Shown: positions 24,950 through 40,951 of the stretch, piece by piece
Layout of the letters: every line of letters begins with the position of its first letter
Position numbering within the stretch: position 1 is the stretch's first letter
Assembly: GCA_003134785.1 (NCBI GenBank)
Contig: PLCN01000005.1
Coordinates: 1 to 64,000, forward strand
From: Spartobacteria bacterium
GTDB taxonomy: Bacteria; Verrucomicrobiota; Verrucomicrobiia; Chthoniobacterales; UBA10450
Direction: 5' to 3'
DNA length: 64,000 bases
Position numbers and translations under genes: made by a program
Notes under the pieces: generated by a model
Database searches by the model: none
Seen by the model: only the letters and a program-made list of their open reading frames with translations
What the model was told of the DNA's origin: nothing

Positions 24950-25088
24950 TCACATCCGCGCGTGAAATGGTAATTTCACCACGCGATGTCGCAACTCCTG
25001 TCGGACGGCCCTCCGCGCCGTTACTTTGTCGCCGAAGCGAGATACTCTGCTGGTCGATGAGGCAGGAAATGATCAAGGTCGTTTAAAA

Positions 25089-28000
25089 GTGAGCGCGGAT
25101 TCCAACGCTTCCATTCCGCCGACGCCGCTGCCGAAAGCGGGTCGTCCAATCTTTGGCGACTACCAGGTCGAAGGCGAACTCGGACGCGGCGGCATGGGCG
25201 TGGTCTTTCGCGCCCGGCAAAAGAAACTGAACCGGCTCGTCGCGCTGAAAATGCTCACCGGCCATTACGGCCCTGACGAACTGGCGCGTTTCCGAGCGGA
25301 AGCAGAGACGGCCGCGAGTCTGCATCATACGAACATCGTCCAAATTTATGAGGTGGGAGAGGATCAGGGTGCGCCGTTTTTTTCGATGGAATATGTCGAG
25401 AGCGGTTCGCTCGCGGATCGGCTGCGCGCCGGAATGCTTCCGGCGCGGGAGGCGGCGCGATTGTTGATCAGCGTCGCGCGCGCGCTGCATTTCGCGCATC
25501 AGAACGGAGTGGTCCATCGCGACATGAAGCCTGCGAATGTGCTGCTGGATCCGGATGGCGTGCCGAAGGTGACCGACTTCGGAATTGCGAAACGCCTGAG
25601 CGGCGACAGCTCCCTCACGCTCTCCGGCGTGGTGATCGGCACACCGACCTATATGGCGCCGGAACAAGCCAGAGGAACGAGTCGCGACGTAGGAACGGCG
25701 GCGGATATCTATTCGTTAGGCGCGATCCTCTACGAAATCCTCGCGGGCCGTCCGCCGTTCCTGCCGGAGGAAAGCGAAACCGCCATCATGGTGCGCGTGA
25801 TCACGGAAGATCCGGTCTCTCCCGCGTGGCATCGGCCAGGCATCCCTCGCGATCTGGAGACGATTTGCCTAAGATGTCTGGAGAAAGAACCGCGCGACCG
25901 CTACTCGAGCGCGGCGGCGTTTGCGGAAGATTTGCGCCGGTTTCTCGAGGACGAATCGATCCTGGCCCGACCGCCGACCACGGCGGTGCGCACGGTGAAA
26001 TGGATCAAGCGCCATCCCTGGCGCTTCGTCGCTGGAGGTGCGCTCGCCCTCGCACTGGCTGCGGCGGGCCAGCGTCTCTGGCAATGGGAATTTTATCAGC
26101 GACCCCATGTGGAATACGCGGCCGCGGTCGATTATGTGAGGGGGGGATTTGAACCGATCTTGAAGATGGATGAGACGGCGGTTTCGCATCACGGCGTGAG
26201 CCTGCGTCTGACGCGCCGCGGCAGGATCGGGCCGGTCACTCGCGTGGAAGTGTTGAATTCCCGCGGGAACCCGGCGGTGCTCCGCCCGATCTATCCCGAG
26301 GTGATTCCCATTTACCTCGAAGGACTAATGGGAACGCAGCCTTACGCCGAAAAAGCGCCGGAAAGCACTAGGATCGAGTTCTCCCACAACGGCGAGACGG
26401 CGACCGAAGCGACCGCCCTGGATCGAAATGGCAATCCGATCTGGCGCATTATTTATGATCGACCGGTGTCTTCACCGCACGCTCCCGGCGCGATCTCGGC
26501 CCGCTTCGCCAATCTCCGCGGATTCGCGAAATCAAGCACCAGCGGCGCTTCGCAAATGGAAATCGAGCGCGACGCGAAGGGCCGTGACGTGAAGGTGAGT
26601 TTCTTCAACGGCGAGGGCAAGCCGGCGGCAAACGGAGAAGGTGTTTACGGATACAAACTGGAGCGCGACGCGGCCGGGAGGATTGTGCGTCTTTTCAATC
26701 TTGGCCAGGATGGACAGCCAGCGGCAAACAACGTGGGACAGATTGCGCTCGCGATGACGTGGGGCCCGGCGGGCCGCGTCGTTCGCATCGACCTGTGGGA
26801 CGGCACAGGGAAGCCCGCAGCGTGGAACGGTGTGTCCGCGATGACCATTGATTACGACGCATCGGGTAATTTGATTGGCCTTGTTCGGCTCGGTGCGGAT
26901 GGAAAGCCCGCGCGCGGAATTGACTGGACCGTGCAGGAAACGCAACGCAACGAACGGGGCGAAATCATCGGACACAAATTTTTGAAAATCGGCCCGGACG
27001 GCGCCAGGTCCCCGTTTTTTCAATGGAAGGTCGCGTACGATGAACTCGGCCATCCATCTGATCTTCAGTTCGCGGGCACGATCAAATGGCGCACTGCCAT
27101 GCTTCATGATGTGAGCGGCAATGTGACCGAGGAAAAGTACCTCGATGCGGAAGGCCGGCCATCAGCCGGAGAGATTGGCTACGCCGTGAAACGCCGCGCC
27201 TACAAATCCGGTCCGGATGGTTTCAGTTGGGAAGAAACCTACTTCGACGCGGCGGGAGCAAAGACCTACTGCAAGACCGGCTATCATCGGATGATCACTG
27301 AATTCGATCCTAATGGCGCGCTGCGGCGACAAACGAGACGGGACGAGGACCCAGCGCGATTCCGCTACTACCGCGACGTGAGCGAGCCGGAGTACGATTC
27401 GCAAGGACGCTTGCGCCGAAGCGTGTTGCGCTTTGAAGATGAAAAAGGGCAGCTCGCCGTGGGTGCCGGACTCCCCTATGCGGCGATCGACGAGACCTAC
27501 AATGAAAATGGGCGCGTGATTCTCACCTGGCAACTGGGATGCGCGGAATCGGCGGGAGCGCCCAATTTTCGCATCGACGCAGAATGGCATAAGACAGGTG
27601 CGCGCAAACGGCAGGTTCGCCAGGCGTGCGACGCGAAGCGCCAGCCGATCAGCTCCCTCTCCAGCGGAGTTTTTTGCGCGCGAAAGGAAGAGGAATTCGA
27701 TGAGATCGATCGCCCGCAGCGGATTTACGAAACCGGATTCAACGAGAAGCTCGTCGGCTTCAGCGTGCGCGAAGCGAGATTTGTTGAAGGGAAATTGCAG
27801 AGTGTTACGCACGAACGCGGCGACGGAACTGCGCTCGACGGAGTGCGCGTGATCGTTACAGGCGTGGCACCGGAACAGCCCAAGGCCACCGAGCTGAAAC
27901 TGGGCGATGAGCTTCTCTCGGCTAATGGCAATCCGATCCGCAGCGCGTATGACTGGATCTTCAGCGCTTTTCCCGGCGGCTGGATCGAGGTCAAACGCGA

Positions 28001-31000
28001 CGGCAAGACAATCCGCCTTGAAGGGTTCGCGGCGGGGAAAGTTGGGATGTTCGTCGAAGACCGCGCGCTCGACGTGCCGCCATATCTTTCCGAAGCGGAC
28101 AAGCTCGAGCAGGTAATGAAGAAACTTTATCAGGCGGGCAAATATGCAGAGGCCATTCCTCTTGCCCTTCAGCTTCTGGACATTCGCGAGAAGACCTTTG
28201 GTCCGGAGCACCCAAACACTGCGTTGACCATCAATAATCTCGCAAACTTTTATAGTGATTCCGGCGACTACGCGAAGGCCGAGCCACTCTATCAGCGCTC
28301 GCTAACAATCCGCGAAAAAGTTCTCGGCCCAGAAGACCCCAAGACCGCGGACAGCGTTAACGATCTGGCCGCGCTTTACGATAAGATGGGTTACTACGCC
28401 AAGGCTGAACCGCTCTATCAACGTTCGCTAAACATTCGCGAGAAAGCTCTCGGCCCCGAACATCCGGACACTGCGAATAGCCTCAATAACCTGGCGACGC
28501 TTTATGACAAGATGGGCGATTACGCCAAGGCGGAACCGTTGTATCAACGATCGCTGAAGATCCGTGAGAAAGCGCTCGGACCCGACGATCCGGACATTGC
28601 GACGAGTCTCAATAACCTGGCTGGCCTTTATGTGAGCATGGGCAGCTACGCCAAGGCCGAACCACTCTATCAACGCTCACTCAACATCCGCGAGAAGGCC
28701 TTTGGCCCGGAACATCCCAACATCGCGAACAGCCTTAACAACCTGGCAGAGCTTTATGATAGCATGGGCGACTACGCTAAGGCTGAAACATTCTATCAAC
28801 GCTCCCTGACCATCAACGAGAAAACGCTCGGTCCAGAACACCCACTCACTGCAACCAGCCTCAATAACCTGGCCGAGGTTTATAAGGAAATGGGAGACTA
28901 CGCCAGGGCTGAGCCACTCCTGCAGCGCTCACTCAAGATCAACGAGAAAGCGCTCGGTTCGGAACACCCAAATACCGCCAACATCCTGCACAATCTGGCT
29001 GATCTTTATGATAGCATGGGCGACTACGCCAAGGCTGAACCCCTCTATCAACGATCGCTGGCCATCATTGAGAAAGCGCTTGGTTCGGAACACCCCAGCA
29101 CCGCTAACAGCCTGAACAGCCTGGCGGCGTTCTACGTAAGTCTTGGGGACTATGCCAAGGCCGAGCCACTCTATCAACGGTCGTTAGGTATCCGCGAGAA
29201 GGCGCTCGGTCCGGAACATTCGAGCACCGCACTAAGCCTCAATAATCTGGGAGAGCTTTATCGTGAGATGGGCGATTACGCCAAAGCCGAATCGCTCTAC
29301 CAGCGCTCATTAAAGATCTTTGAAAAAGTGCTCGGCCCGGAACACCCAAGCACGGCCTTAAGTCTCAACAACCTGGCGGAGCTTTACACCAAGATGGGCG
29401 ACTATGCCAAAGCTGAACCACTCTACCAACGTTCCCTTCACATTCGCGAGAAAGCCCTCGGTTCGGAACACCCGGATACGGCACTGAGCCTCAATAACCT
29501 GGCCGGGCTTTACCATCGAACAGGCGACTACGCCAAGGCCGAGCCACTCTACCAACGTTCACTCAAGATCATTGAAAAGGTGCTCGGCCCGGATCATCCA
29601 AACACCGCGGCAAGTCTCAACAATCTGGCACTGCTCTATGGGGACATGGGCAACTCGCAGGAACAGTTACGCCTGGCCCGACTGGCGCAGCGGGCGGAAG
29701 AGAAGATTTTATCGAACGTTCTGTCCTTCACGTCCGAGCAGCAGCGTCTCGCCTTTCAGAAAACAACCCGGCCCTATACCTTGCCCGCCATTCTCGGGAA
29801 CGGCCCGGAACTCGCCCAGCTCATTCTCAGGCGAAAAGGCATTGTCCTCGACTCATTATTGGAAGACCGGCTCGTAGCCGAGACCAGCACCGATCCCCGG
29901 CAGCGCGAAACGATTAACCAACTTCGCAAAGCCAAGCAGCAACTCATGCAATTGTTATTGGAAGTGCCGAAGGATATTTCAGAAACGGCGGTCAGGAAGC
30001 GTGAGACCGAAAAGAAGGAACTCGCCCGGAAAGTAGAGGAACTCGAGGGAGGCCTTGGCCGACAGGTCGCGGGGCTTGGTCGTGTGCGACGGGCGTTGAG
30101 CTTGACCGTAGCTCAAGTGCAGACGGCGCTTGGCCCGGGTGCGGCGTTGATCGAACTCCTGCGCTACGAGAGTTATCAAGGCAAGAACAAATTTGAGCCG
30201 CGATATGGCGCGGTGGTGATCGCGTCTGGCAGCGAACCGAAATGGGTTCCACTAAGCGCCGCGGCGGAGATAGAAAAGAAGATCCAGTTGTATAAGAAAT
30301 CCGTGCGCGGGCAAACGAACGAGGCGGCTTTGGGCGCCGTGCTCAAGAAACTAGACGAGGAAGTTTGGGCGCCGATCGCGAAAGAGTGTCCACCGGGCAT
30401 CAAGACAATGATCGTAAGTCCCGATGCTGAATTGAACTTCGTTTCGTTCGCGACGCTGTTGACACCTAACGACCGATTCGTCGGCGAAGAGTTTTCCATC
30501 CGCTATGTCGCCAGCGGTCGCGACTTGTTGCGAGAAACCAAACCGGCCGCGATCGCGAAAACATCGATGCAAGTCTTCGCGAACCCTGATTTCGCGGCAA
30601 AGACTGATGGAGTTACTCTAGCAGAAGAAAAAACAAACACAGCTACCTTTCGATCTATCGAGATGCGGGAGCTGCAATCCATTTCGCTTCCAGAGTTACC
30701 GGGCACGGCCAGAGAATCGGCGAAACTGGAAGAGTGCGCGAAGAAGTCAGGCTGGCAGGCTCATCTGAATCTCGGCGAACACGCCACTGAAGCAGAGCTG
30801 CGCAAGGTGAACTCGCCGCGCATTCTGCATTTGGCCACGCATGGATTCTTTCTGCCTGAAATCGACCTCGATCCGCCACAAAACGGCTTGTCGCGAACCG
30901 AGGCTGACATTCCGAAGGATAAATTAGTTAATCCGATGCACCGAAGCGGACTTGCCGTAACAGGCGCGGAAACGACCCTGCATGCCTGGGCTAACGGACA

Positions 31001-31385
31001 AGTGCCCCCGACCGAGAACGACGGAATCGTGACCGCCGAAGAAGTAGGAGGACTTAAGCTGAACGATACCTGGCTCGTCACTCTTTCCGCTTGCGACACC
31101 GGTAGTGGTGAAGCTAAAGCCGGTGAAGGTGTGATGGGTTTGCGTCGCGGCTTTGTTCAAGCCGGCGAACAAAACCTCCTGATGACTCTCTGGCCGATCA
31201 GTGACGAGACGACCGTGCAAATCATGCTTGATTTTTATGAGGCCGCGTTCAAGACCGGCAACGCGCCGCAGGCTCTCGCCGATACGCAACGTGATTGGCT
31301 GGTGAAGCTGCGCAAAGAACATGGCTTGCTCGATGCGGTCCGGCTTGCAGGCCCATTTATCATGAGCTCGCAGGGCAAGCCTTGA
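25089..31385 (+). CDS. Giant Ser/Thr kinase - PDZ - TPR - CHAT protease fusion
   Basis: 2098 residues from GTG 25089, which has AAGG about 10 bases upstream; TTG 25026 would add 21. Domains in order: Hanks-type kinase (about 25-290) with GRGGMGVV loop, catalytic HRDMKPAN (143-150) and DFGIAK (163-168); a membrane helix (312-328). A long region of DGxP/YD-like repeats follows (about 360-900; for example FFNGEGKPAANG, LGADGKPARG), then a PDZ-like domain (about 925-1000; LKLGDELLSANGNPI). Next are 12 TPR units of 42 residues (28138-29650) and a C-terminal CHAT caspase-like protease. The CHAT dyad is His1918 (LHLATHGF) and Cys2002 (LSACDTGSG). All catalytic residues look intact. The kinase faces the cytoplasm; the topology of the rest depends on the one helix. 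CHAT proteases in other bacteria act in defence or regulated cleavage. The role here is unknown. Confidence 0.92.
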   Translation: MSADSNASIPPTPLPKAGRPIFGDYQVEGELGRGGMGVVFRARQKKLNRLVALKMLTGHYGPDELARFRAEAETAASLHHTNIVQIYEVGEDQGAPFFSMEYVESGSLADRLRAGMLPAREAARLLISVARALHFAHQNGVVHRDMKPANVLLDPDGVPKVTDFGIAKRLSGDSSLTLSGVVIGTPTYMAPEQARGTSRDVGTAADIYSLGAILYEILAGRPPFLPEESETAIMVRVITEDPVSPAWHRPGIPRDLETICLRCLEKEPRDRYSSAAAFAEDLRRFLEDESILARPPTTAVRTVKWIKRHPWRFVAGGALALALAAAGQRLWQWEFYQRPHVEYAAAVDYVRGGFEPILKMDETAVSHHGVSLRLTRRGRIGPVTRVEVLNSRGNPAVLRPIYPEVIPIYLEGLMGTQPYAEKAPESTRIEFSHNGETATEATALDRNGNPIWRIIYDRPVSSPHAPGAISARFANLRGFAKSSTSGASQMEIERDAKGRDVKVSFFNGEGKPAANGEGVYGYKLERDAAGRIVRLFNLGQDGQPAANNVGQIALAMTWGPAGRVVRIDLWDGTGKPAAWNGVSAMTIDYDASGNLIGLVRLGADGKPARGIDWTVQETQRNERGEIIGHKFLKIGPDGARSPFFQWKVAYDELGHPSDLQFAGTIKWRTAMLHDVSGNVTEEKYLDAEGRPSAGEIGYAVKRRAYKSGPDGFSWEETYFDAAGAKTYCKTGYHRMITEFDPNGALRRQTRRDEDPARFRYYRDVSEPEYDSQGRLRRSVLRFEDEKGQLAVGAGLPYAAIDETYNENGRVILTWQLGCAESAGAPNFRIDAEWHKTGARKRQVRQACDAKRQPISSLSSGVFCARKEEEFDEIDRPQRIYETGFNEKLVGFSVREARFVEGKLQSVTHERGDGTALDGVRVIVTGVAPEQPKATELKLGDELLSANGNPIRSAYDWIFSAFPGGWIEVKRDGKTIRLEGFAAGKVGMFVEDRALDVPPYLSEADKLEQVMKKLYQAGKYAEAIPLALQLLDIREKTFGPEHPNTALTINNLANFYSDSGDYAKAEPLYQRSLTIREKVLGPEDPKTADSVNDLAALYDKMGYYAKAEPLYQRSLNIREKALGPEHPDTANSLNNLATLYDKMGDYAKAEPLYQRSLKIREKALGPDDPDIATSLNNLAGLYVSMGSYAKAEPLYQRSLNIREKAFGPEHPNIANSLNNLAELYDSMGDYAKAETFYQRSLTINEKTLGPEHPLTATSLNNLAEVYKEMGDYARAEPLLQRSLKINEKALGSEHPNTANILHNLADLYDSMGDYAKAEPLYQRSLAIIEKALGSEHPSTANSLNSLAAFYVSLGDYAKAEPLYQRSLGIREKALGPEHSSTALSLNNLGELYREMGDYAKAESLYQRSLKIFEKVLGPEHPSTALSLNNLAELYTKMGDYAKAEPLYQRSLHIREKALGSEHPDTALSLNNLAGLYHRTGDYAKAEPLYQRSLKIIEKVLGPDHPNTAASLNNLALLYGDMGNSQEQLRLARLAQRAEEKILSNVLSFTSEQQRLAFQKTTRPYTLPAILGNGPELAQLILRRKGIVLDSLLEDRLVAETSTDPRQRETINQLRKAKQQLMQLLLEVPKDISETAVRKRETEKKELARKVEELEGGLGRQVAGLGRVRRALSLTVAQVQTALGPGAALIELLRYESYQGKNKFEPRYGAVVIASGSEPKWVPLSAAAEIEKKIQLYKKSVRGQTNEAALGAVLKKLDEEVWAPIAKECPPGIKTMIVSPDAELNFVSFATLLTPNDRFVGEEFSIRYVASGRDLLRETKPAAIAKTSMQVFANPDFAAKTDGVTLAEEKTNTATFRSIEMRELQSISLPELPGTARESAKLEECAKKSGWQAHLNLGEHATEAELRKVNSPRILHLATHGFFLPEIDLDPPQNGLSRTEADIPKDKLVNPMHRSGLAVTGAETTLHAWANGQVPPTENDGIVTAEEVGGLKLNDTWLVTLSACDTGSGEAKAGEGVMGLRRGFVQAGEQNLLMTLWPISDETTVQIMLDFYEAAFKTGNAPQALADTQRDWLVKLRKEHGLLDAVRLAGPFIMSSQGKP
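28138..29650 (+). repeat. Twelve 126-bp tandem repeats encoding TPRs
   Basis: Twelve consecutive 42-residue units with consensus GDYAKAEPLYQRSL…REKALGPEHP…SLNNLA.LY. The first is more divergent (GKYAEAIPLALQLL) and the middle ones are close copies. The 42-residue spacing identifies the TPR_12/kinesin-light-chain subtype. High DNA similarity between units suggests recent expansion or gene conversion. Confidence 0.93.
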
Positions 31386-31391
31386 GTGCGG

Positions 31392-33752
31392 TTAGGGATC
31401 TTGCAGGTTGTAAACCTCGAAGAGACCTACCCCAGGTTCGCCATTTCGTTCGCGAATAATGGCGGTGTAGGCGCCGGACGGGAGAGTGGTCACGATGGCT
31501 GATTCGAGATCGTTCGAGGGCGCGAGCGTTGTTTGTTCGATTTCGAGTTGCGGGCCGTCTTTCCAGTTGTCGTTGGAAGCGATGAGGGTGCCGTTGATGT
31601 CGCGCAGCTCCATGGTCGGATCGGGCATCGCGTTGTTCACGCCAAAGGCAGCCAGCGATGGCGCGACGGATCGCACCAGCACTCGCGTCGTCCCGGTTTG
31701 TCCGCCGATGATGAAGCCGCCGATCATCACGTCGCTTACGCTGCCGACCGCGCCGCGGGTGCTGATGTTTGCCAGGGTGGAATCGGAGGTGGGGCTGAGG
31801 TCAAACACTTCGACGACAGCGGTGCCGGCAGCTCCGTTTTTCCCGCCTGCAATTGCGGTGTAAGCACCCGGCGCCAGCGTTTGCACAATCGCCGCTTCCA
31901 ATTCGCTTGCGGGTGAAAGACCCGTCGCTTCGATTTCCGCTTGTTGCGAGTCGGTCCAATTATCATTCGCCGCGACGACGGCGCCGGTCTGGTCGTGCAA
32001 CTCCAGGGTTGGATCGGCCAGCGCGGAATCGATTCCGAATTGCGAGAGCGAAGGTCCGATCGCGCGGACGATCACTTTCTTGGGCGCGGTCCCTGTGATG
32101 ATGAAGCCGCCGATGAGCTGATTGTCGCCCGTCCCAGCACCGACCCGTGTGGAAATATTTGCGAGCTTTTCGGCCGCGACAACAGGCAAAGGCCCACCGA
32201 GAGAGGGATCGGCGCCGTCGGGGTCGCGCGGAAATTTCGCGTAGGGCAGTCTCGCGCCGAGGTAGGCGAATTCATCGGCACGGATATTTTCCGGCGCGAG
32301 AAAATCATGAGTGCCGGACGCGCCGACAATGTCGTCCTGGTCCACGCCGTCGCCACTGATACCGATCGCGCCGATGAGTTGCCCATTGCGATATAGCGGA
32401 AAGCCGCCGGGAAAAATTGTGATCCCGTTCGGAAATCGCGGATCCGTCCCGCTGGAATCGAGGACGAAATTCGGAAGCGCCGCGCGGTTGAAGCCGGAGA
32501 ATTGTTCCTGGAGTCCGAAATAAGGGCCGGGATCCTGGACGTCGAGCCCAGGCGGATATTTGGTTTGGGCCAGGAAACCGACGGTCCGCGTGGAAACGGC
32601 AAATGAGTTGTTCGAGAAGCCAACCGCGGTGCGGCCTTTTTGCACCGCCACATCCCAACTGAAAAGAGTCGCCTCACCGGTCCGGAATGCGCCCAGCACG
32701 CTCGGAGCCTTGGTGGGGTCGTTCGGATTATTTTCGACGGTAATGAAAACCTCCATCGGAATGCCGATGGGCAAACGAATGCCGGCGCGAGTCGTTCGCG
32801 CACGGTCCGCCGCGAAATTGATAATGCTCCTTACCTCCGCCGCGGTGAGGCGGGGTTGACCATTTATTGGAGTCGAAATGGGATCGCTCACAATGGGCTG
32901 ACGAATTTCGCCCTGCACTCCGCCGAAGGTCGCGATCGGATAAGGAAATGGCGGAGGGGCGGCCTGGACAGGATAGTCAGCCGCGGCGTTTCCAGTCACG
33001 GTAATGGGACTTACCGCTGGCGCCGGGGACAAAACGTACGGAAGCGCAATGCCGTTGATGTAGACGTTGTCCGCCTGGATCGAACGGTCGGGACGAAAGC
33101 CAAACTGTCCGGCCAGCGCGATCTCCTCGTCTTGGTCGTAACCGCCAATGAACGTGAAAGGGTTTTGCGAACGGAACACGACCGGGCCCGGCACCCCGTC
33201 GCCGGTCACTCCGATGCCGCCGACAAGTTTTCCGTCCTTGTAAAGCGGAACACCGCCGGGTGATCCATCGAGCGAAGTAAAAGGAACCGGGACGATGGTG
33301 TTGCCCGGCGTGCTGCTGAAACTAATGAGGCTGCCTGGTTTCCGGAACTTGTTGATGTCGGAAAAGAAAAGATTGGAGAGGCCAACGCCCACAAGCGGGC
33401 CGGGCGCGGTGTTGCGCACACCGGGCGGAAAATGCTGCTGGATAATGAAACCGGCGGTCCGCGACGTGAAGGCGTTTTGATTGCTGCTCAAATATGAAGC
33501 GGTGCCGGCCTTCGAGACGCAGCTCGAGATTTCCAGCGCATCCGGTTCGCCGCCGCGGACGTTCCAAATGCCGAGGACGTCTCCTTCGCGATCGGTTACG
33601 GCGATGACACTGTTCGGCGAAAGCTGGACGGCGCGGGTGATCGCCTGGTTGATAATGGTCTGAACGTCGGTCGCGGTGAGCTGCGCGCGAGCCACGGCGG
33701 GGCCGAGTGCCAGGCTAACGGCAGCGATGAACAACAGAGTGCGCAATCTCAC
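31392..33752 (-). CDS. Secreted double GlcG/HbpS-like protein with two verrucomicrobial C-terminal modules
   Basis: 786 residues from a GTG start with a signal peptide ending near ARAQ (residue 24). Two copies of the GlcG/HbpS-like fold follow, starting LTATDVQTIINQAI (about 25) and LTAAEVRSIINFAA (about 298). Each ends in a 'GGIGVTGDGV' or 'GAIGISGDGV' segment; this family binds haem or small cofactors. The C-terminal 240 residues are two copies of a roughly 115-residue module starting LANISTR, with GGFII and RAIGPSLS or RSVAPSLA. I know this module as common on exported proteins of soil Verrucomicrobia. It is probably cell-surface or extracellular. Confidence 0.82.
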   Translation of the reverse strand: MRLRTLLFIAAVSLALGPAVARAQLTATDVQTIINQAITRAVQLSPNSVIAVTDREGDVLGIWNVRGGEPDALEISSCVSKAGTASYLSSNQNAFTSRTAGFIIQQHFPPGVRNTAPGPLVGVGLSNLFFSDINKFRKPGSLISFSSTPGNTIVPVPFTSLDGSPGGVPLYKDGKLVGGIGVTGDGVPGPVVFRSQNPFTFIGGYDQDEEIALAGQFGFRPDRSIQADNVYINGIALPYVLSPAPAVSPITVTGNAAADYPVQAAPPPFPYPIATFGGVQGEIRQPIVSDPISTPINGQPRLTAAEVRSIINFAADRARTTRAGIRLPIGIPMEVFITVENNPNDPTKAPSVLGAFRTGEATLFSWDVAVQKGRTAVGFSNNSFAVSTRTVGFLAQTKYPPGLDVQDPGPYFGLQEQFSGFNRAALPNFVLDSSGTDPRFPNGITIFPGGFPLYRNGQLIGAIGISGDGVDQDDIVGASGTHDFLAPENIRADEFAYLGARLPYAKFPRDPDGADPSLGGPLPVVAAEKLANISTRVGAGTGDNQLIGGFIITGTAPKKVIVRAIGPSLSQFGIDSALADPTLELHDQTGAVVAANDNWTDSQQAEIEATGLSPASELEAAIVQTLAPGAYTAIAGGKNGAAGTAVVEVFDLSPTSDSTLANISTRGAVGSVSDVMIGGFIIGGQTGTTRVLVRSVAPSLAAFGVNNAMPDPTMELRDINGTLIASNDNWKDGPQLEIEQTTLAPSNDLESAIVTTLPSGAYTAIIRERNGEPGVGLFEVYNLQDP

Positions 33753-34086: not shown

Positions 34087-36531
34087 ATGCCCTCGTCTCG
34101 CCAACAGGCTAGCGCGCGAGTTCGACGGATGCTTCTTGCATTCGCGGGTCTGGCCTTTGCCTGCGGCATTCCGGCGATCGGCAGCGACGACAATCTTTCG
34201 GCTCGCGATGAAGGAGCACGCGTGGAGATCAACGGCGGTCCGACCAAGTCTCCCAAGGTCGAACTCACCAGCGACAGCAAGGAGGCGCGCGTCGAGATCA
34301 ATGGCGGCCGCAACAAGTCAGGCCGAGTTGAAATCACGAGTGACAGCAAAGATGCGCTGGTCGAAATTAACGGCGCTCGCAACAAGTCCGACAGGTTTGG
34401 GGTTACCAGCGACAGCAAGGACGCGTCGGTCGAGATCAGCGGGGCGCGCAATCAAACAACTCAAATAGAAATCAATGGCCGCCGCGCCGAATCGCGTTTC
34501 CGGCTTGGACGGCGTTACCTTTTCGGGCAGGAACAGGCGCTCGAAGAACCGCCGCTGCCGCCTTCGCAATTCAATCCCGATCCCGGCGGCGGGAACCTCG
34601 CCGAGCCGATTCCACCTCCGGATTTGTTTCCGCCCATCCTCCCGCAACCGCCAGAGTACGGGGATGAGCCAATCCCACGCTCGCTCGGATTGCCGCGCCG
34701 CGGAGTGCGCGAGATGGTCCCGCAACGGCGAAAGCTAGACTACGAAACTTATCCCGACTCGGAAAACGGCGTCGGTCTTCTCCCGGGCTCCGAGCCGGTG
34801 CCGAACCGATGGTTCATCGGGTTCGGACGCTGGCAACGCTACGCCGATCCGTCGACGGAAACCCCTTATCAATCAGGTGCGTTGCGTCTCTGGCATCCCT
34901 ATTTGCAAAGCACGTTGAAAGGTGACGCCCCGATCGTCGGTCAGGACATTTTCCTCAACCTCACGTTGAACGACTTCTTTCAGTTCGAGGCGCGCCGGCT
35001 TCCGACCCCAAGCGGAGTGAGCACGGCACGTCCGAACAGCTCTGAGTTTTTCGGCCGGAGCGAGCAGCTCTTTTTCTCGAATGATTTTTCGATCGGAATC
35101 GATCTGTTCCAAGGCGAGACGGCATTCAAGCCGGTGGTGTGGGCGCTGCGTCTCCTTGCGGTCGCGAACTACAACTACATCACCGTAAAAGAGAACAACG
35201 CACTCGACCCCGATCCCCGCGGGCCGGGATTTGGCGGCCCGGCGCCCGTGCTGACCTTCCCGAATCCAGGCGATCCCACTTCGGGGCTCGGTCCCGGCCT
35301 GACTCCTTTGGCGAAGGATCTGGCGCACACGCGATACACTACGCGGGAGAAGGAGTGGTATTCGCTCCAGGAAGCGTTCGCGGAAATCCACCTCCGCGAC
35401 CTAACGAATAATTACGATTTCATTTCCTCGCGGGTCGGCATCCAGCCTTTCGTGAGCGATTTCCGCGGGTTCATCTTCAACGACTCGAATCTCGGCGTCC
35501 GCATTTTCGGGAACTACGACAACAATCTCTGGCAATATAACGTGGCCGCGTTCGACATGCGCGAGAAGGACACTTATTCCGACCTGAATACATTCGATTC
35601 GCGGGACCAGCAAATCTTCATCGCCAATGTTTTCCGCCAGGACTTCATTTGGAAGGGCTACACCGCCGAGCTAAGTTTTCACGCCAACTTCGACGGAGGC
35701 GCGCGGCACTTCGACCAGAACGATTTCATCACGCGGCCTGCTCCGATCGGGGCCGTGCGCGATCATTATGTTCAAGCCTACTACCTCGGCTGGAGCGGCG
35801 ACGGCCACATCGGCGGACTCAATCTCACGCACGCGCTCTACCAGGTCTTCGGCGAAGACGGCTTCAACGGCATCGCGCAGCAGCGGGCGGAGATCAACGC
35901 GCAAATGGCGGCGCTCGAGCTTTCGGTCGATAAAGACTGGCTGCGTTTCAAGCTCTCGGGCTTCTACGCCAGCGGCGATCGAGATCCGAGGAACTCACAC
36001 GCAACCGGGTTCGACACGATTTTCGACCGGCCATTTTTTATTGGCGGGCCGTTCAGCTATTACGTGCACCAGGGGTTCAACCTCGGCGGCACCTCGGTGA
36101 ATCTAAAGCAGCGCGACAGTCTCGTGATCGATTTGCGCACGAGCAAGAGCGAGGGGCAATCGAACTTCGTCAATCCGGGCGCGATCATTGTCGGCTACGG
36201 GACCGACGCGGACCTCACGCCGAAGTTGAAGGCGTTCATGAACGTGAACTACATCTGGATGGCCGAGACGGAATCGATCCGGCAGGTGCTGTTCACGAAT
36301 CACACGAGCAACAACATCGGACTGGATTGCAGTCTGGGATTTCAATACCGCCCGCTCCTGACGAATAATATTATTTTCTCAGCCGGTGCTGGGTTCCTGG
36401 TGCCGGGACAAGGCTACAAAGACATTTACCGGGCGAATACGAATCCGGTTTTTGGTTATGGCGGACCGCCGGCGGGGAAGGTGGACGATTTTCTTTACAG
36501 CGGGATTCTTACTCTGACGCTGACGTACTGA
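34087..36531 (+). CDS. Porin-like outer-membrane protein with N-terminal 22-residue repeats
   Basis: 814 residues from ATG 34087, with a signal peptide (hydrophobic LLAFAGLAFACGIPAIGS). Mature residues about 35-130 hold four degenerate 22-residue repeats (pattern ARVEINGGRNKSGRVEITSDSK). A Pro-rich linker follows (about 150-215). The remaining 590 residues are barrel-like, with many aromatic-rich alternating strands, ending LYSGILTLTLTY. It lies directly upstream of, and is translationally coupled into, the decaheme cytochrome operon, which suggests an outer-membrane conduit or porin partner. I cannot match it to MtrB by motif. Confidence 0.75.
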   Translation: MPSSRQQASARVRRMLLAFAGLAFACGIPAIGSDDNLSARDEGARVEINGGPTKSPKVELTSDSKEARVEINGGRNKSGRVEITSDSKDALVEINGARNKSDRFGVTSDSKDASVEISGARNQTTQIEINGRRAESRFRLGRRYLFGQEQALEEPPLPPSQFNPDPGGGNLAEPIPPPDLFPPILPQPPEYGDEPIPRSLGLPRRGVREMVPQRRKLDYETYPDSENGVGLLPGSEPVPNRWFIGFGRWQRYADPSTETPYQSGALRLWHPYLQSTLKGDAPIVGQDIFLNLTLNDFFQFEARRLPTPSGVSTARPNSSEFFGRSEQLFFSNDFSIGIDLFQGETAFKPVVWALRLLAVANYNYITVKENNALDPDPRGPGFGGPAPVLTFPNPGDPTSGLGPGLTPLAKDLAHTRYTTREKEWYSLQEAFAEIHLRDLTNNYDFISSRVGIQPFVSDFRGFIFNDSNLGVRIFGNYDNNLWQYNVAAFDMREKDTYSDLNTFDSRDQQIFIANVFRQDFIWKGYTAELSFHANFDGGARHFDQNDFITRPAPIGAVRDHYVQAYYLGWSGDGHIGGLNLTHALYQVFGEDGFNGIAQQRAEINAQMAALELSVDKDWLRFKLSGFYASGDRDPRNSHATGFDTIFDRPFFIGGPFSYYVHQGFNLGGTSVNLKQRDSLVIDLRTSKSEGQSNFVNPGAIIVGYGTDADLTPKLKAFMNVNYIWMAETESIRQVLFTNHTSNNIGLDCSLGFQYRPLLTNNIIFSAGAGFLVPGQGYKDIYRANTNPVFGYGGPPAGKVDDFLYSGILTLTLTY

Positions 36532-37037
36532 TGAAACGGAACGGGATGAGAGGGAGCGGTGGGCGCGTGAGGGAAGAGCCGGACGTGGACTTCGCGGGAG
36601 GGTTAAAAGGCAGAACGTCCAACGTCCAACGTCCAACGTCCAACGTCCAACTAAGAGAGCAGAGCGCCACGGGTTCGAGTGAAAGGCGATTTGATCTTGA
36701 GGAACGGTTGCTGGAGTACGCGGTCAGGATTATTCGATTGGTCGATGCGCTGCCGGGAACCCGGGCAGGCAGGCATGTTGCGGATCAACTGCTTCGATGC
36801 GGAATGTCGCCGCTGGCAAACCACGGTGAGTTGCAAGGCGCGGAATCGCGCAAGGACTTCATTCACAAGCTCGGGGTTTGTCTGAAGGAAATCCGCGAAG
36901 CGCGGCGCTGGCTGCGTTTGGTTCATCGCGTACCTCTACTCACGCCCGCGAAGATCGACCCGCTCATTGGCGAAACCGAAGCGTTAATCAAAATCTTTTC
37001 CGCGAGCATTAGGACCGCCGAGAAAAACAAACGATGA
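36531..37037 (+). CDS. Four-helix-bundle (23S rRNA intervening-sequence type) protein
   Basis: 168 residues. The ATG overlaps the porin stop (TGATG), and the stop overlaps the cytochrome start (ATGA). Residues about 50-165 match the S23/IVP four-helix-bundle family: FDLEERLLEYAVRIIRL, ADQLLRCGMSPLANHGE, ESRKDFIHKLGVCLKEIREARRWL. These proteins, related to the Avd accessory protein of diversity-generating retroelements, have an unclear function and often occur in odd contexts. The first 45 residues are extra and include a stretch encoded by a heptamer DNA array (TSNVQRPTSNVQ). No reverse transcriptase or variable repeat is nearby. Confidence 0.85.
   Translation: MKRNGMRGSGGRVREEPDVDFAGGLKGRTSNVQRPTSNVQLREQSATGSSERRFDLEERLLEYAVRIIRLVDALPGTRAGRHVADQLLRCGMSPLANHGELQGAESRKDFIHKLGVCLKEIREARRWLRLVHRVPLLTPAKIDPLIGETEALIKIFSASIRTAEKNKR
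36614..36651. repeat. Heptamer array (AACGTCC)5, left of the four-helix gene
   Basis: Five perfect 7-bp units plus AAC. It is the exact inverse of the (GTTGGAC) array at 37060-37094. Both arrays have five units, and they bracket about 410 bp containing the body of the four-helix-bundle gene. Confidence 0.9.
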
Positions 37038-40000
37038 ATACGCCAAGGCGGCCTCTGTCGTTGAACGTTGGACGTTGGACGTTGGACGTTGGACGTTTCT
37101 TTTTCTGCTTCCCATTCGCCATCCTCTTCATCGCGGCGGGACCTTTCATCACCCGCGATAACGAAACAACCTCCGGCAACGGACCGGAGACCTCCATCCC
37201 TGCTGACGCCTCCATCACCGCGCCCGGCGCTCGTCCACGCCAAAACTGGATCGATCAATCGCAGGCCTCGGCCGATGCCAAGAGCGCCGGCTGCAATCAG
37301 TGCCACAGCGGGATCGAACCGATGCATCAGGCCACGCACGTTGTCCTCGGCTGCACCGATTGCCACGGCGGCAACGCGTCGCGCGGCCTAACGAAAGAGC
37401 AGGCGCACGTCCTGCCGACTAACAAGGAGTTTTGGAAAACATCCGCGAACCCGCCGAACTCAAACGTCTGGCTCAACCATGAATCGCCTGAGTTCATTCG
37501 ATTCATGAACCCGGGAGACTTGCGCGTGGCAAAACAAGCCTGCGGACTTTGCCACGACGAGATCATTCGCAACGTCGATCACAGCATGATGAACAGCGGG
37601 CCGATGCTCTGGGGCGCGGCGCTCTATAACAACAGCGGCTTCTACCTGAAGAACTATCGCTTCGGGCAGGCTTACGGCGCCGATGGCGCGCCGCTCCGCC
37701 TGCTCAATTACACGCCGGTCACGCCTAACGACACCAAGCTTCACGGCATTCTCCCGTTCCTCGATCCGCTTCCGCGTTTTAACCTGAGCAATCCCGGCAA
37801 CATCCTGCGCATTTTCGAAAAGGGCGGCGATAAACAATTGCAGCTCGGAATCCCGACCACGGAAGAACCGAACGGCAAACCGCTGCGTCGTTTGTCCGAG
37901 CGGGGCCTCGGCACCCTCAACCGGACCGATCCGGTTTTTCTCGGTTTGCAAAAAACGCGTTTGCACGATCCGCTGCTCGGATTCTTGGGTTCGAACGATC
38001 ACGCGGGCGATTATCGCTCGAGCGGTTGCTCGGCCTGCCACGTCGTTTACGCGAACGATCGTTCGCCGACCAACTCAGGCTGGTGGAGCAAGTACGGACA
38101 CCAGGGCCTGACTTTCACCGCGGACAAAACCATTCCAAAAAAAGAACGCGGCCATCCGATCACTCATCAGTTCACGCGGTCCATTCCATCGAGCCAGTGC
38201 ATGAACTGCCACATGCACCAGGGCAATCTCTTCGTGAATCCGTATCTCGGTTACACCTGGTGGGACCAGGAAACGGATGGCGAGTTCATGTATCCGAAGG
38301 AGCAACGGAATCCGACCGACGACGAATTGGTGATTGAAACGCAAAGCAATCCGGAGGCGGCGGCCGCGAAAGGTCTGTGGGGCGACAAGGAATTTCTCGA
38401 CAAAGTCTCCGAGTTAAATCCGAAGCTGAAACACACGCAGTTCGCCGACTATCACGGGCACGGCTGGGTTTTCCGCGCCATCTTCAAGCACGATCGTAAA
38501 GGCAATCTGCTCGATCTGGCCGACAACAAAATCCCGCACGACGATCCGGAGAAATTCGCGAAAGCGGTTCACCTGAAGGACGTGCATCTCGCGCATGGCA
38601 TGCAATGCGCCGACTGCCATTTCGAAAAGGACGTGCACGGAAATGGGCAGCTCTACGGCGAACCGCGTAACGCGACCACGATCAATTGCATCGACTGCCA
38701 CGGCACGATCGGTGCGCGGCCGACGCTGGTCACGACGGGCAATGCCGGCCAGATCGATTTGTTGAACAACAGCAACACGCCGTGGGGTCCGCGTTTCGTT
38801 TGGGAGGGAAACGCGCTTTATCAGCAATCGGTCATGTCACCGGACAAACGCTGGGAAGTGCCGCAGACGATGGACACGGTCGATCCCCTCTCCGCGCATT
38901 ACAATCCGAAGTCCGCTTACGCGAAAACGCTTTTGCGCGACGGCAAGAGATGGGGCGATGTCCCCGCCGATTCGAGCGAGCGGCACGTCACCCTCGCCCA
39001 CGATAACAGCGCGATGGATTGCCAGATCTGCCATACCTCTTGGGCGACGAGCTGCTTCGGTTGTCATCTGCCGATGAAGGCGAATCAGCGCGTCCCGCAA
39101 AATAAATTCGAGGGCGTGATCGATCGGAATTACACGACCTACAATCCGCAGGTCGTGCGCGACGATGTCTTTATGCTCGGGATCGATGGGACCGTGAAGA
39201 AGAACCGGATGGCGGTGTTGCGTTCTTCGAGCGCGGTAGTCGTGAGTTCGCAAAACGCGAATCGCGAATGGGTTTACTCGCAGCAGCAGACTTTTTCGGC
39301 GGAAGGCTACAGCGGCCAGGCCTTCAATCCGCATTTTCCTCATACCACCAGCAGTGTCGGGACGACGAAAAATTGCACCGACTGTCACCTTTCGAAGAAT
39401 AACGACAACAACGCCTGGATGACGCAACTGCTCGGGTTCGGCACCGGCACGGTGAACTTCTTCGGTCGCTACGCCTACGTGGGAGAAGGGCGCGAAGGAT
39501 TGCACGCCGTGATCTGGACCGAGCCGGATGAACCGCAGGCGGCGATCGGGAGCCATCTGCACAAAATCGCTTACCCGGATAATTACCGGAAACATCTCGA
39601 GGCCGGGTCGATTCTGAAAGAAGGACACGAGCACAGCGGCCATGACATCCAGGACCTCGTGCTGCGCGGCGAGTATCTCTACACCGCGAACGGGCCTGGT
39701 GGCTTCGAGGTCTTCGATGTGGCGAACATCGATCAGAAAGGATTTTCGGAGCGGATTGTCAGCGCGCCGGTTTCTCCGCTCGGGCAGCGCACACGCGTGA
39801 ATACGAAATACGCCACGTCGGTCGCGCTGCCGAGCACGCTCGCGCTCGATCCCGCACGGGTCCGTCTTCCGGAAAACGAAGAGCAACCCATCGATATGTT
39901 CTACGCATTCGTCTACGTCTCGGATCGCGAAGAGGGACTCGTCGGCTCAAACGTCGCGACGCTGGTCGATGGAAATCCGGACAATAATTTCCTGAAGCGC

Positions 40001-40951
40001 GATGTGACCTTCAATCCCAACGGCGTCCTCACCGGCGCGAGCTTTGTCACCGCCGCCGGCCACCGGCTTTACCTGACCACGCCGCGCGGATTGTTCGTGA
40101 TCGACTGCACCGATCCGATGAACCCGCGGTTGGCAGGACAGTTCACCGGAAATTTCCTGCGCAATCCGCATTGTGTTGCGATCCAATTCCGTTACGCCTT
40201 CATCACCGATGATGATGGACTAAAGGTTCTCGACATTACCGACCCGGACCGGCCGGTGCCGATTTCCGGTGCCGCAGTTGGTTTGCGAAATCCGGGCCGG
40301 CTCTATGTCGCGCGCACTTATGCTTATGTCGCCAACGGACCGGAAGGCCTCGCGATTATCGACGTGGAAAATCCCGAGCGGCCGCGGCTCGATCAGATGT
40401 TCAATGCCGGCGGCTTGCTCAACGACACGCGCGCGGTGCAGATCGGCAGCGTCAGCGCATCGCAATTCGCTCTCGTAGCCGATGGCCGCAACGGCTTGCG
40501 CGTCGTGCAGCTTATCTCACCCGATACCGTGCCGGGCGCGCAGGGATTCAGTCCGCGACCCAATCCGCGATTGATCGCGACCTATCCGACGAAAGGCGAA
40601 GCGATCGCGGTCTCGCGCGGGCTCGAACGCGACCGCGTGGTCGATGAAACCGGCGGGCAGACCGTTGTCTTCGGCCGCCGGGGCTCGCGGCCATTTCACC
40701 TCGACGAGATGGAAAAGTTTTTCCGCCATTCCGAATTTGCCGACGCGAAAGACGGCTCCGCACGCCGGGGAAATTTGTATCGAGTGGAAGACGTGATTTC
40801 GCATGATGGAAAATTGATGACGAAGAGCGGCGTCTTTTTATCTCCGATGCCGACACCTACTCCACCCGCCGGCCCGAACCCGACACCACCCGAGCTACTG
40901 CCGGACATCGAACCGACTCCCCTGCCCGATGCGCCTCTGCCAAAAAAATAG
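37034..40951 (+). CDS. Decaheme c-type cytochrome with C-terminal LVIVD-like beta-propeller
   Basis: 1305 residues. Ten C-x-x-C-H haem sites are present: CNQCH, CTDCH, CGLCH, CSACH, CMNCH, CADCH, CIDCH, CQICH, CFGCH, CTDCH. They are spread between about residues 85 and 790. The C-terminal 350 residues are propeller-like repeats of the LVIVD kind (DLVLRGEYLYTANGPGGFEVFDVAN; AYVANGPEGLAIIDVENPERP). A Pro-rich tail ends it. The N terminus is hydrophobic (FFFCFPFAILFIAAG), consistent with export, but its first 22 residues come from a heptamer repeat. It should be periplasmic or surface-exposed. The ATGA overlap couples it to the four-helix gene. Electron transfer is clear; the terminal acceptor or substrate is not. 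Confidence 0.93.
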   Translation: MNTPRRPLSLNVGRWTLDVGRFFFCFPFAILFIAAGPFITRDNETTSGNGPETSIPADASITAPGARPRQNWIDQSQASADAKSAGCNQCHSGIEPMHQATHVVLGCTDCHGGNASRGLTKEQAHVLPTNKEFWKTSANPPNSNVWLNHESPEFIRFMNPGDLRVAKQACGLCHDEIIRNVDHSMMNSGPMLWGAALYNNSGFYLKNYRFGQAYGADGAPLRLLNYTPVTPNDTKLHGILPFLDPLPRFNLSNPGNILRIFEKGGDKQLQLGIPTTEEPNGKPLRRLSERGLGTLNRTDPVFLGLQKTRLHDPLLGFLGSNDHAGDYRSSGCSACHVVYANDRSPTNSGWWSKYGHQGLTFTADKTIPKKERGHPITHQFTRSIPSSQCMNCHMHQGNLFVNPYLGYTWWDQETDGEFMYPKEQRNPTDDELVIETQSNPEAAAAKGLWGDKEFLDKVSELNPKLKHTQFADYHGHGWVFRAIFKHDRKGNLLDLADNKIPHDDPEKFAKAVHLKDVHLAHGMQCADCHFEKDVHGNGQLYGEPRNATTINCIDCHGTIGARPTLVTTGNAGQIDLLNNSNTPWGPRFVWEGNALYQQSVMSPDKRWEVPQTMDTVDPLSAHYNPKSAYAKTLLRDGKRWGDVPADSSERHVTLAHDNSAMDCQICHTSWATSCFGCHLPMKANQRVPQNKFEGVIDRNYTTYNPQVVRDDVFMLGIDGTVKKNRMAVLRSSSAVVVSSQNANREWVYSQQQTFSAEGYSGQAFNPHFPHTTSSVGTTKNCTDCHLSKNNDNNAWMTQLLGFGTGTVNFFGRYAYVGEGREGLHAVIWTEPDEPQAAIGSHLHKIAYPDNYRKHLEAGSILKEGHEHSGHDIQDLVLRGEYLYTANGPGGFEVFDVANIDQKGFSERIVSAPVSPLGQRTRVNTKYATSVALPSTLALDPARVRLPENEEQPIDMFYAFVYVSDREEGLVGSNVATLVDGNPDNNFLKRDVTFNPNGVLTGASFVTAAGHRLYLTTPRGLFVIDCTDPMNPRLAGQFTGNFLRNPHCVAIQFRYAFITDDDGLKVLDITDPDRPVPISGAAVGLRNPGRLYVARTYAYVANGPEGLAIIDVENPERPRLDQMFNAGGLLNDTRAVQIGSVSASQFALVADGRNGLRVVQLISPDTVPGAQGFSPRPNPRLIATYPTKGEAIAVSRGLERDRVVDETGGQTVVFGRRGSRPFHLDEMEKFFRHSEFADAKDGSARRGNLYRVEDVISHDGKLMTKSGVFLSPMPTPTPPAGPNPTPPELLPDIEPTPLPDAPLPKK
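37060..37094. repeat. Heptamer array (GTTGRAC)5, right of the four-helix gene
   Basis: gttgaac followed by four perfect gttggac units, then GTTTCTT. Inverse of the array at 36614-36651 and related to the decayed array at 6476-6503. It is read through as part of the cytochrome N terminus (LNVGRWTLDVGR). Confidence 0.9.

Follow-up and report, generated by a model that had tools for sequence, protein, structure and literature searches.

The window analysed here, a stretch of 64,000 nucleotides from a Spartobacteria bacterium (contig PLCN01000005.1), carries at 25089..31385 (+) a gene whose product of 2,098 aa joins a Ser/Thr kinase, a predicted transmembrane (TM) helix, RHS repeats, a PDZ-like domain, 12 TPRs and a CHAT cysteine-protease-like domain in one chain. 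The open reading frame (ORF) is uninterrupted across its 2,098 codons from a GTG start, and a TTG at 25026 is a possible alternative start upstream. By residue the kinase occupies 25-278, the helix ~311-327, the RHS/YD-like repeats ~340-910, the PDZ-like domain ~918-982 and the TPRs ~1027-1530, and a helical linker then leads to CHAT at 1751-2071. The gene stands alone, with the genes flanking it on both sides on the opposite strand, its direct neighbours being MFS, nitrilase and HbpS-like genes. A preliminary description of this DNA had proposed just such a solitary gene for one chain with kinase, PDZ, 12 TPRs and CHAT, and the ORF, the Pfam matches and the orientation of the neighbours bear this out; its figure of about 2,100 residues was right, but its wording of the size as '2.1-kDa-thousand' was wrong.

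Domains of the fusion protein

The Hanks-type kinase domain (25161..25922, +) passes the Pfam cut-off (Pkinase E 8e-54), has the intact motifs GRGGMGVV, VALK, HRDMKPAN, DFG and APE; the whole genome has 22 Pkinase matches, this one included. The NCBIfam PknB_PASTA model matched the kinase part only, at 293 bits versus a cut-off of 450, and the protein does not belong to that family. The CHAT domain (30339..31301, +) is likewise clear, with a Pfam match (PF12770) over residues 1751-2071 at E 4e-55 and 187.7 bits versus a cut-off of 24. Its predicted His/Cys dyad is intact, with His1914 and His1918 in the motif HLATHGFF and Cys2002 in LSACD; the dyad codons are 30840..30842 (+) for His1918 and 31092..31094 (+) for Cys2002. 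All three residues are unchanged across 12 aligned CHAT relatives, and the motifs of both enzymes are kept in both full-length orthologs, in keeping with the earlier claim that the catalytic residues of both are present.

Ahead of CHAT lie 12 kinesin-light-chain-type TPRs of 42 residues each (28167..29678, +), seen as 12 TPR_10 stretches and a kinesin light chain match of E 1.5e-59; Pfam TPR_12 and TPR_10 together give 11-12 units. The NCBIfam family FxSxx_TPR was considered as an identity for the protein (310.7 versus a cut-off of 300) and rejected, since the match covers the TPRs alone. The linker from the TPRs to CHAT (29679..30323, +) is helical in an AlphaFold2 model with pLDDT of 69-96, and the linker-CHAT model (pLDDT 82) matches Csx29/Craspase, separase and the Myxococcus xanthus protein DdvA in Foldseek.

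Between helix and TPRs lies a beta-rich region, predicted to be extracytoplasmic, with repeats of the RHS/YD type (26106..27818, +). The 'DGxP'-type repeats noticed here before are read as these RHS/YD repeats. A free-standing relative (L026) passes the Pfam RHS_repeat cut-off (27.1 versus 22), the window copy is not above it, and Foldseek matches a low-confidence model of the window protein's region (pLDDT 59) to the cages of Rhs, Tc and teneurin proteins as well as to OspA. The PDZ-like domain (27840..28034, +) scores 22.2 bits in the window copy, under the Pfam gathering score of 27; three PDZ models match all five orthologs, the best at E 1.2e-5. The full-length RHS-PDZ part was found only within the genus.

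A repeat array related to this ectodomain occurs elsewhere in the window's own genome (G000:C7:125671-128136; L138 3609-7766, -), in a 1,385-aa protein with an nSTAND1 NTPase, a TM segment and a long RHS-like array. Counterparts of similar size are present in genomes G001, G002, G004, G005 and G006. A TM-RHS unit on both a kinase and an nSTAND1 NTPase would be expected if the unit were a sensor module coupled to cytoplasmic transducers.

Membrane topology

A single membrane helix, WRFVAGGALALALAAAG, is predicted at 26019..26069 (+) from hydrophobicity and charge. It directly follows the kinase and is the only clear hydrophobic stretch outside the folded domains. The five Lys/Arg residues before it and two after it give a positive-inside pattern, which predicts that the N terminus is inside and the C terminus outside. 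The helix is conserved and is more hydrophobic in free-standing relatives. Nineteen free-standing TPR-CHAT proteins are the closest relatives (profile E <= 1e-70), and a hydrophobicity test, rather than SignalP, found an N-terminal signal-like stretch in 18 of them; in 15 it is strong and next to the start codon, in three it is weaker, and in the remaining protein the start could not be resolved. Several of these relatives also have a C-terminal TM segment.

Because the helix follows the kinase and nearly all close TPR-CHAT relatives are exported, we think that the membrane separates kinase from CHAT, with the kinase probably in the cytoplasm and all later parts of the chain extracytoplasmic. 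The linker and TPRs would then be out of reach for the kinase, and the kinase out of reach for CHAT. This topology does not support the preliminary description, in which kinase and protease acted on each other as one machine, and a protein that phosphorylates and cleaves itself within a single compartment is unlikely. The kinase, one of the two protease targets named there, would lie across the membrane from CHAT. Self-cleavage of the ectodomain is possible.

Origin, selection and exchange of the gene

The fusion gene is present in three of the eight congeneric genomes. Full-length orthologs lie at the same position in G007 (94%) and G001 (73-77%), which answers the earlier suggestion to look for the same domain order in other genomes; a survey of 388 genomes of the phylum, 40 of them with CHAT, gave no CHAT frame longer than 1,356 aa besides that of the window. 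The ratio of replacement to synonymous change (dN/dS) is 0.02-0.25 in all domains apart from the short TM segment, where no replacement change separates the window copy from G007. An assembly artefact or chimera is ruled out, since three genomes carry the fusion, two of them congeners with a full-length gene under purifying selection on every part.

Both halves exist as separate genes. A free-standing kinase-TM-RHS-PDZ protein of ~1,000 aa, present in G004 (C22) and G001 (C70), ends just past the PDZ domain, and free-standing TPR-CHAT proteins are common across the phylum. The gene therefore seems to have formed recently, when two older genes were joined at about residue 1000-1028; the junction maps to 28089..28175 (+), where the free-standing kinase-RHS-PDZ proteins end and downstream of which the TPRs start.

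The gene also appears to be accessory and exchanged, as it is patchy among congeners and less diverged than its neighbours. In G002, G005 and G006 other genes lie between the MFS and HbpS-like flanking genes. Between the window's genome (G000) and G007 synonymous divergence is 0.2-0.5 in the fusion and 0.91-1.18 in the genes on either side. A near-identical block (91.5%) runs from the MFS gene start to the fusion stop, and divergence reaches the level of the flanks only in the last ~150 codons. We infer recombination or transfer after the two lineages split.

Remnants of related genes were also seen. Immediately upstream of the fusion in G007 is a TPR-CHAT gene that is broken into three frames and has a signal-like start of its own (L029 11465-13961), together with a fragment of the MFS gene start, which we read as the trace of a duplication or insertion. 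Isolated C-terminal CHAT fragments lie in G000 and G001 (L034 4968-5207, 80%; L139 5370-5670, 79% identical to the end of the window CHAT), with a weaker third in G002 (L140 4959-5246, ~34% overall and 70% in the last 43 residues), and these we read as debris of lost copies.

Proposed mechanism and alternatives

We favour, at slightly better than even odds (about 0.55), an envelope receptor kinase that spans the membrane once and has a CHAT protease in its ectodomain. Its Hanks kinase would reside in the cytoplasm, with the RHS repeats, PDZ domain, TPR array and CHAT beyond the inner membrane. The ectodomain would recognise a protein or peptide and the TPRs would pass this recognition on to CHAT, as in Csx29, upon which CHAT may cut either an envelope protein that is bound or the ectodomain of the receptor itself. 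The resulting change would cross the membrane, where the kinase would be switched on or freed from restraint and would then phosphorylate cytoplasmic targets. By analogy with Csx29 and DdvA, the protein would be a receptor whose ectodomain is TPR-CHAT and whose transducer is the kinase, and the invariant His/Cys dyad favours proteolysis as part of the signal. A narrower version, in which the kinase is switched for defence or recognition when CHAT cuts either the ectodomain itself or an envelope protein of phage or kin origin, would make the protein the kinase counterpart of DdvA and is put forward only tentatively.

Several points weigh against a receptor kinase of this kind. The helix is short and weakly hydrophobic, with a 17-residue mean of 1.44 versus 1.55-1.92 in relatives, and the confidence of the RHS model is low (pLDDT 59). 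Kinase genes are not generally beside CHAT genes in the verrucomicrobial CHAT loci examined, the CHAT domain of DdvA is a distant sequence relative (E 8e-5), and we know of no protease activity, ligand or substrate for the exported CHAT proteins considered here.

The TPR-CHAT part could instead act as a ligand-binding switch that works by binding and dimerisation rather than proteolysis, leaving the kinase as the sole active enzyme. DdvA (PDB 8rot, 8rw5) provides an example of a transducer with a CHAT ectodomain, and the 8rw5 structure is described as dimeric. We think such a switch unlikely, as a CHAT domain under purifying selection, with His1918 and Cys2002 invariant in all orthologs and 12 aligned relatives, would be unexpected if catalysis were dispensable.

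Signalling might also run from the inside out, the cytoplasmic kinase controlling an extracytoplasmic CHAT effector that kills the cell or attacks envelope proteins. Such a role would suit an accessory, exchanged gene, and TPR-CHAT proteases of the Craspase type are regulated effectors; however, the genes checked include no apparent pore-former or toxin partner, the PADLOC matches are generic, and the TM-RHS ectodomain that stands alone behind the kinase in G004 looks like a sensor rather than an effector tether. We therefore rate this arrangement as quite unlikely.

Improbable, too, is the version in the preliminary description, in which the protein is soluble or lies on one side of the membrane and acts as a death or stress effector, with the kinase phosphorylating the linker or the protease cutting the kinase. 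It has in its favour the two enzymes in one chain with a linker and the weak hydrophobicity of the TM segment, and against it that segment with its charge pattern and the export signals of nearly all close TPR-CHAT relatives. Least probable is a promiscuous fusion by read-through of adjacent genes whose halves work separately without a combined function, for although both halves exist free-standing and the fusion is confined to one genus, three species have kept it and purifying selection acts on both of its halves.

Neighbouring genes and related loci

PADLOC gave no match for the six tested neighbours and only generic kinase and TPR matches for the fusion protein, and detected no complete anti-phage system among them; nothing in the gene's surroundings supports a cell-death role. 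The direct neighbours also include no Cas7-11, Csx30 or sigma factor gene, and a Craspase-like CRISPR partner was rejected. The HbpS-like neighbour (31392-33752) has a C-terminal domain of ~260 residues (residues 523-784; 31401-32186, -) that has no Pfam match and occurs in 68 to 134 copies per genome in the genus, perhaps as a surface or sorting domain. Further along, at 36531-40951 (+), a 23S rRNA-intervening-sequence (IVP) family protein precedes a large LVIVD/cytochrome-c3-like protein; genes resembling this pair also follow in L024.

Two other loci with exported TPR-CHAT genes bear on the receptor kinase reading. In G001:C132 (L032 2528-7154) an ORF that is sigma-factor-like by eye and lacks a Pfam match is followed by a gene for a TM protein, whose match to zf-HC2 is borderline, and then by an exported TPR-CHAT gene, a run that resembles a split DdvA. 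On the Gemmatirosa plasmid NZ_CP007130.1 (L143 1156-7171) an exported TPR-CHAT gene adjoins a kinase-PD40 gene. These gene pairs lend the receptor kinase reading weak backing. The Gemmatirosa plasmid match with kinase, TPR and CHAT (H6) is not a further fusion; it consists of two adjacent genes.

Comparison with known systems

A literature search bounded to open-access papers gave no kinase-TPR-CHAT protein with a described function, and a survey of metacaspases (PMC3501461) does not mention CHAT. The earlier view that known modules are here in an unusual union accords with this result. The parts of this covalent joining of kinase and protease are known, the arrangement was not found described, and it looks new and restricted to a few sister species.

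The kinase half and the overall layout are those of PknB-type receptor kinases (kinase, TM segment, extracellular repeats), except that these have a PASTA ectodomain and the fusion protein has RHS-PDZ-TPR-CHAT, which includes a second enzyme. Within the genus the N-terminal half (G004:C22, G001:C70) or its TM-RHS module (G000:C7, behind nSTAND1) also occurs without TPR-CHAT. The other half resembles the exported TPR-CHAT proteins of Verrucomicrobiota and cyanobacteria, whose CHAT regions are 24-47% identical to that of the fusion outside the genus; copies on cyanobacterial plasmids match the TPR-CHAT half by tblastn. These proteins differ in being free-standing and lacking a kinase, and nearly all the verrucomicrobial ones checked have their own signal-like start.

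Csx29, the protease of Craspase (type III-E CRISPR), shares the order TPR then CHAT with a His/Cys dyad and gave the top Foldseek matches (E 8e-13), but is soluble, has no kinase and pairs with Cas7-11. In Csx29 an event sensed through the TPRs rearranges the CHAT active site, and the substrate cut is a sigma factor inhibitor (PMC10028731).

By analogy the closest known layout would be that of DdvA, the transmembrane anti-sigma factor of the extracytoplasmic function (ECF) sigma factor DdvS, which has a cytoplasmic regulator and a CHAT fold in one chain, a layout taken partly from the title of the structure entry. The CHAT regions of the two proteins match at Foldseek E 1.3e-8 and profile E 8e-5, and the match covers the Cys region of DdvA. 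Where DdvA has its cytoplasmic anti-sigma domain the fusion protein has a kinase, and we know of no RHS or PDZ region in DdvA. DdvA restrains DdvS (PMC4374960), which controls an anti-phage island (PMC12288465). Given this link to an anti-phage island and the patchy distribution of the fusion gene, a role in defence or kin recognition is plausible but undemonstrated.

Verrucomicrobiota repeatedly carry exported TPR-CHAT proteases, and cyanobacteria and other phyla also have TPR-CHAT proteins. The kinase naturally fused to one of them suggests a partner pathway, with a role in membrane signalling and not as a death protease acting freely. Taken with DdvA, the fusion suggests a general use of TPR-CHAT ectodomains as a sensor module mounted on different cytoplasmic transducers, an anti-sigma factor in one case and a kinase in the other.

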